DNA of 64,000 nt from Oceanidesulfovibrio marinus (GTDB lineage: Bacteria; Desulfobacterota; Desulfovibrionia; Desulfovibrionales; Desulfovibrionaceae), in contig NZ_CP039543.1 of the NCBI RefSeq assembly GCF_013085545.1, positions 4,371,322 through 4,435,321 on the forward strand. Reading direction: 5' to 3'. Shown piece by piece: positions 5,633-51,008 of this stretch. The notes below the pieces were generated by a model. It had not been told where the DNA came from, made no database searches, and saw nothing but the letters and a program-made list of their open reading frames with translations. The stretch's first letter is position 1. Each line of letters starts with the position of its first letter. The translations under genes were made by a program, and so were the position numbers.

Positions 5633-6667
5633 TTAGAATCGTTCTTTGAGCATGTCTGTAAGCGTTTTCGCGATACAGTCAACCAGTGGGAGCACATTGG
5701 CGTAGTCCATGCGCACCGGGCCCATGACTCCGACGACCCCCAGGGGCTGGCCGAACTCGCCATACGGAGAGGATACGAGGGAGCACTCCTCCAGCTGGTC
5801 CATGTGGACGTCGGCACAGAAGGTGACCTTGATGCCTTCGTGGGCAATGGTCTTGTCCAGCAGCTCCAGCAGGCGGCTGCGCTCCTCCAGCAGGCTGAAG
5901 ATCTCGCGCATCTTCTCCACCTCGGCGAACTCGGCGTGGGCAAAGAGGTTGGTGGCGCCGTCCACGATGACGTCCCTGGCCGTGGGCTCGTCGAAGGTGG
6001 AGCGGGCCAGGCGCAGGGCTTTGCGGGAAAGGGCCTCGATCTGGCGGCGGGCGCTCTGGAGCTCGCGGTGGATGAGCAGGCGCGCATGGGACAGGGAGCG
6101 GCCGCGGAAGTGCTCGTTGAGGTAGTTGGAGAACTTCACGAGGTCGTCCTGGTTGTACACCTCGCCCACCGGGATGAGCTTGTTCTGCACGGTGCCGCCT
6201 TCGAGCACGAGCACGGCCAGGACCAGGCCGGGCTTGATGAGCACGAAGTCGATCTCCTTCCAGCGCGCCTCGTCGTGGCTGGGGGCCACGATCATGCAGA
6301 TCTGGTTGGTCATGGTGGAGGCGAGCCTGGAAGCCTCGGTGAGGATGTCCTTGAGGTCGAGCCCGGCGCCGGAAAGAGTCTGGCCGATCCTGTCCTTGAG
6401 CTGGGGCGGCAGGGGGTGGGGCATGAGCTGGGAGCCCAGGTAGAAGCGGAAGGCCTCTGGCGTGGGGATGCGTCCGGCCGAGGTGTGGGGCTGGGCCAGG
6501 TAGCCCTTTTCCGTGAGGTCGGCCATGACGTTGCGCATGGAGGCCGGCGAGAGCGACAGACCCGACTTTTTGGAGACCATCCGGGAGCCCACGGGCGCTC
6601 CCGTGGCGATGTACTCCTCGATGATGGTCTTCAGGACGTCGATCTCTCTTTGAACCAGTTCTTCCAT
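5633..6667 (-). CDS. hrcA: Heat-inducible transcription repressor HrcA
   Basis: The 344-residue product is HrcA, the repressor that binds CIRCE operators upstream of chaperone genes. The N-terminal winged helix is typical (LVQREIDVLKTIIEEYIATGAPVG split over residues 4-27, then SPASMRNVMADLTEKGYL). The GAF-like inner domain ends in GPVRMDYANVLPLV near the C-terminus. ATG 6667 was chosen because the protein then starts at the conserved MEELVQRE; an upstream in-frame extension to 6820 has no family support. On the minus strand a TATAAT matches at 6765-6770 and is a candidate -10 box. I see no CIRCE inverted repeat upstream of hrcA, grpE or dnaK. Confidence 0.97.
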   Translation of the reverse strand: MEELVQREIDVLKTIIEEYIATGAPVGSRMVSKKSGLSLSPASMRNVMADLTEKGYLAQPHTSAGRIPTPEAFRFYLGSQLMPHPLPPQLKDRIGQTLSGAGLDLKDILTEASRLASTMTNQICMIVAPSHDEARWKEIDFVLIKPGLVLAVLVLEGGTVQNKLIPVGEVYNQDDLVKFSNYLNEHFRGRSLSHARLLIHRELQSARRQIEALSRKALRLARSTFDEPTARDVIVDGATNLFAHAEFAEVEKMREIFSLLEERSRLLELLDKTIAHEGIKVTFCADVHMDQLEECSLVSSPYGEFGQPLGVVGVMGPVRMDYANVLPLVDCIAKTLTDMLKERF

Positions 6668-6902
6668 GGCTGAACCCCGATATGCGTCGCCCGCAGCAAA
6701 AAGGAACGGCGCAACGCGCCGGATACCGCAGGAAGGGTGCCGATGCTCCCTGAGTAGAAGTTTTATTATAAATTTAAGTTGTTGGGGGGCGGCACTGACG
6801 ACTGTTAAAACGGGTAACAACGGCTCTACCCCCTGTCAAGAAGCATGGGCGCGGGACGGCCGCGACAACGCTGCGGGAGGTGGGCTAAACGTCCTGTCCT
6901 TG

Positions 6903-6931
6903 TTGACAAATTGATGACATCCCAATATATG
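6903..6931 (+). promoter_or_regulatory. Sigma70-like promoter for the c-di-GMP riboswitch transcript
   Basis: A perfect -35 box TTGACA at 6903-6908 is followed after 17 bp by TATATG at 6926-6931. Transcription would begin about 6938, roughly 10 nt before the aptamer, which is the expected arrangement for a riboswitch leader. Confidence 0.7.
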
Positions 6932-6948
6932 GGATACAGCAGGTGGTT

Positions 6949-7058
6949 AAGGCCAAACCCGTCGCGAGACGGGGACGGAAAGCCACGGGTCTCATGCCCT
7001 TGATTCGTAAGCGGTTTCCCATGCGTTAAGGGGGTATGGGAGATGGCCGGGTTGCCCA
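6949..7058 (+). promoter_or_regulatory. Cyclic-di-GMP-I (GEMM-I) riboswitch aptamer
   Basis: The leader carries the GEMM-I consensus in order. GGCCAAACC leads into stem CCGTC-GCGA-GACGG with a GNRA tetraloop, followed by GGGACGGAAAGCCACGGGTC. After a variable second hairpin with arms catgcccttg / aagggggtatg comes AGATGGCCGGGTTGCCC, which closes the P1 and receptor elements. GEMM-I RNAs bind bis-(3'-5')-cyclic dimeric GMP and control transcription or translation of the downstream gene. The next start codon (GTG 7164) lies about 105 nt downstream, so that interval should hold the expression platform. I do not see a clear U-tract terminator there, so translational control or an anti-terminator-free design is possible; ON or OFF polarity cannot be read by eye. 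Confidence 0.93.
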
Positions 7059-7163
7059 CGTGCTGGTGCGCATGCGTTTCGTCATGAGGCTGCTGTGTGT
7101 TCCAGCGATGATTCATTTCCGGCGCTTCCGTGGCGATGATCAATGTGAACGGAAGAGACTGCC

Positions 7164-8546
7164 GTGAAACCCAAGCGGTCCGTCGAGCATGTCGTCACGG
7201 ATTTATTCGCTTTTCTCGGAACATACGATTGCCGGGACGAGCGGCGTATCCTTGCGCTCGACGCCAAGCCGCCCCAGGTCTTCCGTACCTTCTACGCCTC
7301 CTATCTGCCTCTCATCGTTACACTCTGGATTCAAGCCCTGCAGTATAACCAGCCAGGGAACGCGGACGCCGTCAGCCAGGCGTTTCTCGACGAGTTCCAT
7401 GCGCGCATGAGCCGCCTGGGCTCCAGGAGCCTGGCGGACGAGGTGCTGCGCGGCGTGGCCGGGTTGCCCAAGCTGCTCCAGCGCGAGAACGGCGTGGTCC
7501 TCGTGGCCGCCGCCTGCGTGGAGAGCATGACCAACGGCAACATCCCCAAGAAGGGCAAGCGCGCCAGTCTGCTGACCCAGAAGATCCTCAAGATACTGCA
7601 ATTTTTCATTACTCGGCTCGGCGCGTACGAGGTCGTGCACCAGAGTTCCGTGCCCGTGCCGTACGTGACCACCTTCTTTGCCAACGGCAATGGCGACGGA
7701 ACCGGCCCGGCGGCAACACCCCCCGCACCCGCCAAGACCGCCCGGACCCCTGCCGCGGCATCGCGGTCCGCCGCAAAAGCCGCTGCCAAACCTGCCGCCG
7801 CAGCCGCTGAGAGCATCGTCGCCAAGCCCGAAAAGCCGTCCTCGCCTCTTCCAGAGCTGGACGAGCCGCCGCCGGTGTGGGCCAAGGATCCGAGTGCGGA
7901 AAACAAGCCCACGCCGCCCGAGCCGATGACGCCCAAGGAGCTGCCGCCCGAGCCGATGACATCCGATGAGCCGTCCCTTGCCGAGATCGAGGAGGTCTGG
8001 ACCGGGGATGAGCAGGGCGCTGCAGCACCGTCCGTGCAGAAGACGCTCCAGGCTGCGGTAGAACAGCCGGCGGTAGAGGACGCTGCTCCAGCGCCTGTGC
8101 CGGAGCCTGCATCCGAAGCCCCGAAGGTCGCGCCTGCGGCCGCACCTGCAGCCAGGCCGGTTGCGGCTCCCAAGGCCGAAGCGGCAGAGCCGGTCGCCAT
8201 GGCCGACGCTCCGGACGACCCCTTTGCCGACGATGACGACGAGGACATGTTCGTGGTGGACGCCGAGGAGACCGACGACGACATCTTTGCCGACGCTGGC
8301 TGGGACGAGCCCGACGACGAGGACGAGGGTGTCGGCGCTGGCGATCCCTACAACGAACTCGGCATCGGTGACGGCGACGAACCGGCCGTGGATGCGGACA
8401 TGTCCGGCTTCGAGTTCGAAGAGCAGGAAGAAGAGAAGCACAACCCCGGCATCGATGTGGACGAGTTCCACGACGTCATCAACCGCGTGGTCACCGAAGT
8501 GCTCAGCTCCCAAACCGACAGCGACCCCGATTCCCGCAATCTCTGA
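7164..8546 (+). CDS. Unrecognised protein under c-di-GMP riboswitch control
   Basis: The 460-residue product is not recognised. Residues 1 to about 170 form a compact, mostly helical region (LFAFLGTYDCRDERRIL, LPKLLQRENGVVLVAAACVE) with no signal peptide or membrane segment. Residues about 175-350 are a long Ala/Pro/Glu-rich linker resembling TolA or domain-spacer sequence. The last 110 residues are strongly acidic, with runs such as FADDDDEDMF and DEPDDEDEG. The start is GTG 7164 behind ggaagaga. It follows the c-di-GMP riboswitch, so its level should respond to the motile/sessile switch. A cytoplasmic scaffold or regulator is conceivable; I assign no function. Confidence 0.8.
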   Translation: MKPKRSVEHVVTDLFAFLGTYDCRDERRILALDAKPPQVFRTFYASYLPLIVTLWIQALQYNQPGNADAVSQAFLDEFHARMSRLGSRSLADEVLRGVAGLPKLLQRENGVVLVAAACVESMTNGNIPKKGKRASLLTQKILKILQFFITRLGAYEVVHQSSVPVPYVTTFFANGNGDGTGPAATPPAPAKTARTPAAASRSAAKAAAKPAAAAAESIVAKPEKPSSPLPELDEPPPVWAKDPSAENKPTPPEPMTPKELPPEPMTSDEPSLAEIEEVWTGDEQGAAAPSVQKTLQAAVEQPAVEDAAPAPVPEPASEAPKVAPAAAPAARPVAAPKAEAAEPVAMADAPDDPFADDDDEDMFVVDAEETDDDIFADAGWDEPDDEDEGVGAGDPYNELGIGDGDEPAVDADMSGFEFEEQEEEKHNPGIDVDEFHDVINRVVTEVLSSQTDSDPDSRNL

Positions 8547-13455: not shown

Positions 13456-14133
13456 TTACGCCCTGCACAGCTGTTGCAGGATCTCGCGGACGTCGTCTTC
13501 CTCAGCCTCGAAGGCTAGGCCCACGCCGGGCAGGGTCCGTCCGTGGCCCCAGGGGATGTGGTGGACCACCCGCGCGGCCACGCGCAGATGGCTGCCGCAG
13601 CCGCAGGCGTCCGGAAAGATCACGCTGACCCGCGCACCAGGCGCGAGGGCCGTGGCTGTGACCACGAAACAGCCGTAGGGGGTGTAGTTGGCCAACACGG
13701 CGCGTTCCCCTTGCGGCGCCTGATTGCTGGTCAGGATAACGTTGTAGTTGAGCGCGATGCGCTCCATCCGGCGGATGGGCCGCGGCGTGAACGAGCGGCA
13801 TGGTCCATTCAGGAACGCCCGGAGCGCGGCGACCGGGTCGGGCTCCGGCCCCGGAACAAGGACCGCGCCGTCTTTGCGGCTGTAGCGCATGCGGATGATG
13901 GGGTATATGCCGAGCAGCTCGAAGACCCGCTGCTTGTCCGCCCCCTTGATGCGCACCACGGAGGGCAGGTCCAGCACCACGCCCTGGATGGGGGCGCCGC
14001 GCAGGACGCTGAGGATGTCCGCCTGGGCGTGGGCCACAAAGCAGTCGGCACCCAGGCTGCGGACCAGGCGGGCGTACTCGGCCATGGCGTCCTCGTCCAT
14101 GGCGACGATGAGCAGGCGGATGACGTTATTCAC
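13456..14133 (-). CDS. PilZ-like domain protein, possible c-di-GMP effector
   Basis: The 225-residue product has an N-terminal part that looks like a degenerate receiver fold (IRLLIVAMDEDAMAEYARLV, then GVVLDLPSV) without the full phosphoacceptor pocket. Residues about 115-225 resemble PilZ: an arginine patch RPIRRMERIALN followed about 30 residues later by NYTPYGCFVV, in the position of the usual (D/N)xSxxG motif, and a beta strand GVGLAFEAEEDD. The second motif deviates (NYTPYG), so c-di-GMP binding is uncertain. The apparent start is GTG 14133 without a clear ribosome-binding site. It is divergent from cobQ. Confidence 0.65.
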   Translation of the reverse strand: MNNVIRLLIVAMDEDAMAEYARLVRSLGADCFVAHAQADILSVLRGAPIQGVVLDLPSVVRIKGADKQRVFELLGIYPIIRMRYSRKDGAVLVPGPEPDPVAALRAFLNGPCRSFTPRPIRRMERIALNYNVILTSNQAPQGERAVLANYTPYGCFVVTATALAPGARVSVIFPDACGCGSHLRVAARVVHHIPWGHGRTLPGVGLAFEAEEDDVREILQQLCRA

Positions 14134-50739: not shown

Positions 50740-50925
50740 GCCACATATTGGAACTCCGGGAAACGGAAGACGGTGAGAGTCCGTCGCAGACGCGCTGCTG
50801 TGTTCGGGATCAGCGCCTGAGGGAGACTCCACTGGATGCGTACACGCATCCGGGAAGGAGCCCCGAATCGGCCGGGCCATACAGAGCCCACCCCGTAAGC
50901 CAGAAGACGTCTCGGAGATTTTCGC
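50740..50925 (+). promoter_or_regulatory. Cobalamin (B12) riboswitch
   Basis: The leader carries the cobalamin aptamer in order: CGGGAAACGGAAGACGGTGA with GAGTCCGTCGCAGA, then GGGAGACTCCACTGGATGCG pairing with cgcatccGGGAAGG, and finally GAGCCCACCCCGTAAGCCAG with AAGACGTCT. Binding of adenosyl- or methylcobalamin should lower metE expression. The downstream terminator at 51009-51040 gives a plausible transcription-attenuation platform. Confidence 0.95.
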
Positions 50926-51008
50926 AGGCACGCCTCGCGCCATGGGCTGCTGACGCCGAATCCGACACGATATCGTGATCCTCCGGGACGGCGTTGCACG
51001 ACATACAC

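Follow-up and report, generated by a model that had tools for sequence, protein, structure and literature searches.

A c-di-GMP-I riboswitch upstream of an undescribed gene in Oceanidesulfovibrio marinus, and the helical-domain family of its product

A c-di-GMP-I riboswitch lies upstream of an undescribed gene in the 64,000-nucleotide stretch of the Oceanidesulfovibrio marinus genome analysed here (hereafter ‘the window’, to which all positions refer). The riboswitch class is already known and it is the target that is of interest. Judging from its bases, the RNA sensor at 6943-7060 most likely responds to c-di-GMP. We consider it probable that the region 6903-8546 is a c-di-GMP-controlled transcription unit with a riboswitch leader and an effector-side product, the domain of which is coupled to PilZ in two other genera. 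Beyond the class itself, the interest resides in the target family and in what looks like a swap between a protein sensor and an RNA sensor.

Identification of the aptamer

Two Rfam covariance models match the forward strand at 6943-7060 (cmscan). The c-di-GMP-I-GGC model (RF03167) reaches 64.3 bits (gathering score 59, E 7.1e-13) and, at the same place, the c-di-GMP-I model (RF01051) reaches 57.1 bits (gathering score 35). A preliminary description, made from the sequence without database searches, had proposed a GEMM-I aptamer here and a covariance search as the means to verify it; with both scores above their cut-offs, the proposal is borne out. Neither model has any match in 14 named control genomes. 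The details of that description hold as well. The core GGACGGAAAGCCACGGGTC is present at 6973-6991 and is unique in the window at up to three mismatches (shuffled sequence gives 0.03 matches on average), the stem described as GNRA-capped is P2 with a GCGA loop, and the spacing to the GTG start at 7164, estimated at about 105 nt, measures 103 nt from the end of the aptamer.

The aptamer shares the helix layout of the c-di-GMP-I class (GEMM-I, RF01051; type member Vc2 of Vibrio cholerae), including the GNRA-capped P2 and the bases G20, A47, C92 and A48/A49. In the Vc2-type numbering given in PMC3764141 and PMC4744006, the key bases are G20 (6952), C21 (6953), C22 (6954), G45 (6977), G46 (6978), A47-A49 (6979-6981) and C92 (7055). 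The class also has an interhelical C44-G83 pair, of which C44 corresponds to 6976 and G83 would be expected within the extended P3. Three differences from the class model are found: a C21-G46 pair replaces G21-C46, P3 is extended (the aptamer has 118 nt against 75 nt in two paralogs) and the target gene belongs to a family without a name.

With an extended P1, the aptamer covers 6937-7065. The inner part of this helix (6943-6946/7056-7059) was taken from the Rfam alignment, whereas the outer part (6937-6941/7061-7065) was read off the sequence and is seen in the predicted fold of 6932-7075; a G-G mismatch (6942/7060) separates the two. Reading the alignment with the second species that was compared within the genus (genome G001, locus L008) shows that the four inner and three of the outer pairs are kept there, that the P2 loop is GCAA and that the last P2 pair changes from C-G to U-A. 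P1 is absent from the minimum-energy folds of longer leaders; identification of the aptamer depends on the covariance models.

Ligand specificity

According to two published papers, position 47 stacks with both ligand guanines (PMC3764141) and the ligand-contacting residues are G20, A47 and C92 (PMC4744006). The window carries the standard base at all three positions, as do all 32 family aptamers examined, the window included; these 32, from the 89 matches listed, are the best-scoring loci together with L002 and L003. The neighbouring pair is C21-G46 in 29 of the same 32, again including the window, and G21-C46 in three, so that pairing is kept through two-sided changes. The standard G20, A47 and C92 therefore assign the aptamer to the ordinary c-di-GMP class; its lineage is one in which the adjacent pair is flipped.

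Two other ligands have to be weighed. The aptamer could be a c-di-GMP-I-GGC variant sensing a different, perhaps unknown, signalling molecule, as RF03167 yields the top bit score in the window, above its gathering score, and variants of the class have reportedly been proposed, by Weinberg and colleagues in 2017, to have altered ligands. We regard this as improbable. The RF03167 consensus has a G after GACGC (model column 37, position 47) where the window has A, which appears as a mismatch in the cmscan alignment, and A47 is invariant among the aptamers examined. We infer that ‘GGC’ in the variant name denotes the bases at positions 20, 47 and 92; in two papers that carry the variant name, it appears as an entry in a list of models. 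Within the same genome, moreover, aptamer L003 favours RF01051 (57.8 against 55.7 bits) whereas the other two favour RF03167, and among the scanned downstream genes are ones for c-di-GMP enzymes and for surface systems. A cGAMP (GEMM-Ib) riboswitch of the kind known from Geobacter is more improbable still: A20 marks cGAMP selectivity, and position 20 in the window (6952) is G rather than A. The match to RF01051 would also suit such an RNA, which belongs to the same class, and PMC8835794 describes cGAMP riboswitches as structural relatives of the c-di-GMP ones that are abundant in Geobacter. C-di-GMP remains the most likely ligand. The aptamers at L011-L039 also score above the cut-off of the GGC variant, and A47 is standard in all of them.

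Promoter and leader

A promoter at 6903-6931 (forward strand) is plausible. The preliminary description had given the riboswitch its own promoter, TTGACA-17 nt-TATATG, and this sequence is found exactly there, with the -35 element TTGACAAA kept in the other species. The -10 element does not share this conservation, and the site is absent from the output of a consensus scanner owing to the missing final T of the -10. More generally, alignment of the two genomes reveals a nearly identical aptamer core, whereas divergence is seen in the -10 region, at the tip of P3 and over much of the leader that separates the aptamer from the gene.

The platform had been described as free of a clear terminator, and our scan agrees. 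In 6650-7300 a single terminator-like site was found, on the reverse strand and upstream, and none between aptamer and gene. By our own loose rule, terminator-like sites occur within 200 nt of six of the 32 aptamers, the window not being among them.

Just 3′ of the aptamer, predicted folds contain a hairpin (7062-7106, forward strand; five outer pairs 7062-7066/7102-7106) that is a candidate switch element. Its outer pairs take up the 3′ half of outer P1, which makes the two helices mutually exclusive. P1 is present in the minimum-energy fold of 6932-7075, but in the fold of 6932-7120 the hairpin forms and P1 is lost; the hairpin is also formed when the platform is folded alone. In these models, P1 giving way to the hairpin is the behaviour that would be expected of a switch. 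The free minimum-energy fold of 6936-7205 has no P1, and the accessibility of the Shine-Dalgarno sequence (GGAAGAG, 7151-7157) is nearly equal when P1 and P2 are forced and when the RNA folds freely, hence no switch at the ribosome-binding site is apparent in the energy model. A candidate hairpin sequestering the Shine-Dalgarno sequence (CUUCCGU 7125-7131 with ACGGAAG 7149-7155, forward strand) appears in the platform-only fold. It is absent from folds of the long RNA and is not conserved in the other species, where the start-codon region is predicted to pair instead of the Shine-Dalgarno sequence. Translation rather than termination is proposed as the controlled step because no terminator was found; as the likeliest mode this is a guess, with about even chances of being right.

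The target gene

The gene at 7164-8546 (forward strand) starts with GTG and encodes a protein of 460 residues that belongs to no database family. Its orientation is divergent with respect to hrcA and convergent with respect to an ABC1-family gene. The preliminary description held that it is not a known motility or biofilm gene, and the searches concur: the protein has no match in Pfam at E up to 0.1, and its single line in NCBIfam is a flagellin model with 14.1 bits against a cut-off of 423. For residues 1-179, PHROGs returned nothing and PDB sequences gave one chance line (E 0.61).

Profile searches, hhalign and AlphaFold2 delineate an N-terminal helical domain of approximately residues 1-152 (7164-7619), which represents an unnamed family of the Desulfovibrionaceae. 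AlphaFold2 yields a confident helical model of residues 1-179 (mean pLDDT 85.9), for which Foldseek found no match at E up to 0.001. A fold assignment from VIA (best Z 5.2 over 96 residues) is not claimed, as the shared helical bundle may be a common arrangement. The remainder of the protein is a tail rich in Ala, Pro, Asp and Glu by composition and motif scan (residues 176-460, 285 residues; 7689-8543), which stands in place of the PilZ-bearing half of the relatives described below. The ortholog in G001, whose tail has the same compositional bias, is 60% identical over residues 1-458, and near the end of the tail the two species share a short similar segment (IDVDEFHDVIN-VVTEVL). Comparison with this ortholog over the first 152 codons indicates purifying selection (dN 0.106, dS 0.862, dN/dS about 0.12), a ratio which argues that the gene is real.

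Relatives fused to PilZ

A search with the whole protein matched four of 59 genomes of relatives: its own, G001, G014 (E 2.0e-18) and G015 (E 6.1e-6). What the distant relatives share is a stretch of approximately 150 N-terminal residues; their C-terminal half differs and is identified by Pfam as PilZ in G014 (E 3.2e-09), G015 (3.1e-05) and G078 (6.7e-05), all above the cut-off, the latter two narrowly. The fusion is thus found in three genomes of two other genera. All three proteins contain the motifs RxxxR and [DN]xSxxG, 25 residues apart. In this respect the target family resembles the PilZ-domain c-di-GMP receptors, from which the window protein and its G001 ortholog differ: neither has a Pfam PilZ match (E up to 0.1 for the window protein, up to 1 for the ortholog) or a [DN]xSxxG motif, and the window protein carries RxxxR only inside the N-terminal domain. 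With the N-terminal alignment as query, tblastn located the domain in two contigs of Desulfovibrio sp. metagenome-assembled genomes (31% identity, E 5e-22; 24%, E 5e-10). Eight homolog loci, those with PilZ fusions included, were scanned at E up to 0.5 and none showed a c-di-GMP riboswitch; two weak lines belonged to an unrelated sRNA family.

PilZ domains are frequent in the window's own genome, at no fewer than 17 places. The count is a lower bound because the genome-wide search missed the gene at 13456-14133 (reverse strand), situated 5 kb from the riboswitch gene, whose product matches PilZ in Pfam (3.5e-07). Given this count, the coincidence of PilZ and a riboswitch on one small family is notable, yet it was found after the fact. 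The sequences suggest two routes by which the same protein is linked to the same messenger. A literature search that covered part of the published sources and few of the subscription journals showed nothing on this riboswitch target or on a PilZ/riboswitch exchange.

The wider helical-domain family

A profile of four N-terminal sequences (A1: window, G001, G014 and G015) matches 60 of 247 genomes of the taxonomic family. A larger profile (A4) matches 59 of 199 genomes of the order and 114 of 297 of the class; except for G037 and G305, all genomes matched by A1 or A4 are within the window's family. A4 and the tree comprise 23 rows, namely the window, L008 and 21 of 28 stretches, the near-copies L046, L049, L051-L054 and L063 being omitted. 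Usually the domain is a protein in its own right, of approximately 160 residues. The relation between this form and the window type is supported by hhalign (97.9% probability between the two profiles) and by the reverse search with stand-alone proteins, which returned the window gene at E 4e-5. At a lax E of 1 the reverse search gave rows in nine of nine genomes, but the row in G225 (E 0.38, internal stop) is no real match. Three stand-alone members were scanned and have no Pfam or NCBIfam match above cut-off.

Most of the 114 genomes, 111 in all, have the domain at a single place. In G237 and G255 the gene is split into two neighbouring matches, perhaps by frameshifts, and G319 has two places on different contigs.

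Directly upstream of the stand-alone gene lies a DEAD-box RNA helicase gene, recognised by its DEAD and SAT motifs, at 16 of 18 loci (L045, L047, L055, L056 and L058-L069); Pfam confirms the assignment at the four of these that were scanned. The 18 are part of 25 stand-alone loci, the omitted ones (L046, L049-L054) all belonging to genus g50. At the two exceptions, L048 and L057, Pfam names nothing for the upstream gene, and L048, the sole g50 locus examined, has no helicase in the stretch available. With one such helicase as query, the top match shows 40-42% identity in the window genome, G001 and G015, and 64% in G014 (E up to 1e-20).

The tree sets the window protein, its ortholog and the three PilZ proteins apart from the 18 stand-alone proteins across one branch (support 100/100). 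Inside that side the order is unsure: long branches are present, and neither a PilZ clade (p 0.22) nor a group of window, L008 and G014 (p 0.26) is rejected. Either a loss of PilZ in the window's genus or a gain alongside that genus would therefore fit.

Conservation of the unit and other aptamers

Aptamer and gene occur in the same order in both genomes of the genus that were compared (the window genome, G000, and G001). The aptamer at L008 is the sole RF03167 match in G001, for which RF03167 alone was searched. The window genome has three aptamers of the c-di-GMP-I class, and the other two precede an EAL-HDOD gene and a GGDEF gene. RF03167 matches 56 of 199 genomes of the family, with stricter filters being used for such large sets. 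Fourteen genomes have both the aptamer and the helical domain, which are adjacent only in G000 and G001; by coordinate comparison, three of the other 12 have both on one contig, far apart, and nine have them on different contigs.

Apart from the window gene and its ortholog there are 30 aptamer loci, of which ten, including the two others of the window genome, were scanned for the protein downstream. They comprise two EAL-HDOD proteins (one with EAL below cut-off), one GGDEF and two HD_5 proteins, one MshEN protein with a type II/IV secretion ATPase, one ShlB-type transporter, one subtilase and two proteins without a match. Together these form a typical c-di-GMP set. The ShlB-type transporter gene and the subtilase gene follow the aptamers at L018 and L014, where a riboswitch may thus govern secretion or secreted proteases. 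The window also contains a cobalamin riboswitch at 50740-50930 (forward strand; RF00174, 64.6 bits).

The suggestion in the preliminary description that the gene may belong to the c-di-GMP network gains support from three sides: the conservation of the unit in the genus, the sister aptamers ahead of EAL-HDOD and GGDEF genes, and the PilZ-fused relatives.

A model of the unit and its alternatives

In the unit as we picture it, a c-di-GMP-I riboswitch with an extended P3 occupies the 5′ leader of one gene, with transcription predicted to start near 6938. Binding of c-di-GMP to the aptamer, as predicted from its bases, would stabilise P1, and the stabilised helix, sharing its 3′ strand with the next hairpin, would alter access to the ribosome-binding site. 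The product would be a putative effector-side protein consisting of the helical domain and an acidic, disordered-looking tail. This helical domain appears to be coupled to c-di-GMP through a protein, PilZ, in two other genera and through an RNA here.

Several observations stand against this model: Shine-Dalgarno accessibility is almost unchanged in the computed energies, the free fold of 6936-7205 has no P1, the candidate Shine-Dalgarno hairpin and the -10 element are not conserved, and the best Rfam label is that of the GGC variant. The first of these, together with the lack of a terminator-like site and a platform sequence that is largely unconserved between the two species, would also fit a real aptamer that does not switch translation of this gene, the leader being decayed or constitutive, or acting through Rho-dependent or other termination. 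We think this unlikely. Both species retain the aptamer core, and retain it ahead of the same gene, although its surroundings have diverged, which argues against a decayed leader. The proposed unit at 6903-8546 is retained as the best explanation. The PilZ link of its product comprises three genomes of two genera and was recognised in hindsight; the tree is compatible with both loss and gain of PilZ.

Tentatively, an uncharacterised helical domain may have been wired to c-di-GMP twice, by a fused PilZ in two other genera and by a leader riboswitch in the window's genus, where the protein has no PilZ. This would amount to a natural swap of post-translational against RNA-level sensing, in a domain whose gene, elsewhere in the family, is a conserved neighbour of one for a DEAD-box RNA helicase. 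Taken as a whole, this broader picture is somewhat doubtful.

Implications

For annotation, the Rfam ‘GGC’ label on c-di-GMP aptamers of the Desulfovibrionaceae can mislead, A47 being standard in 32 of 32 examined. The riboswitch target points to an unnamed protein family that is present in 114 of 297 genomes of the class, and the function of this helical-domain family becomes testable through its two distinct couplings to c-di-GMP.
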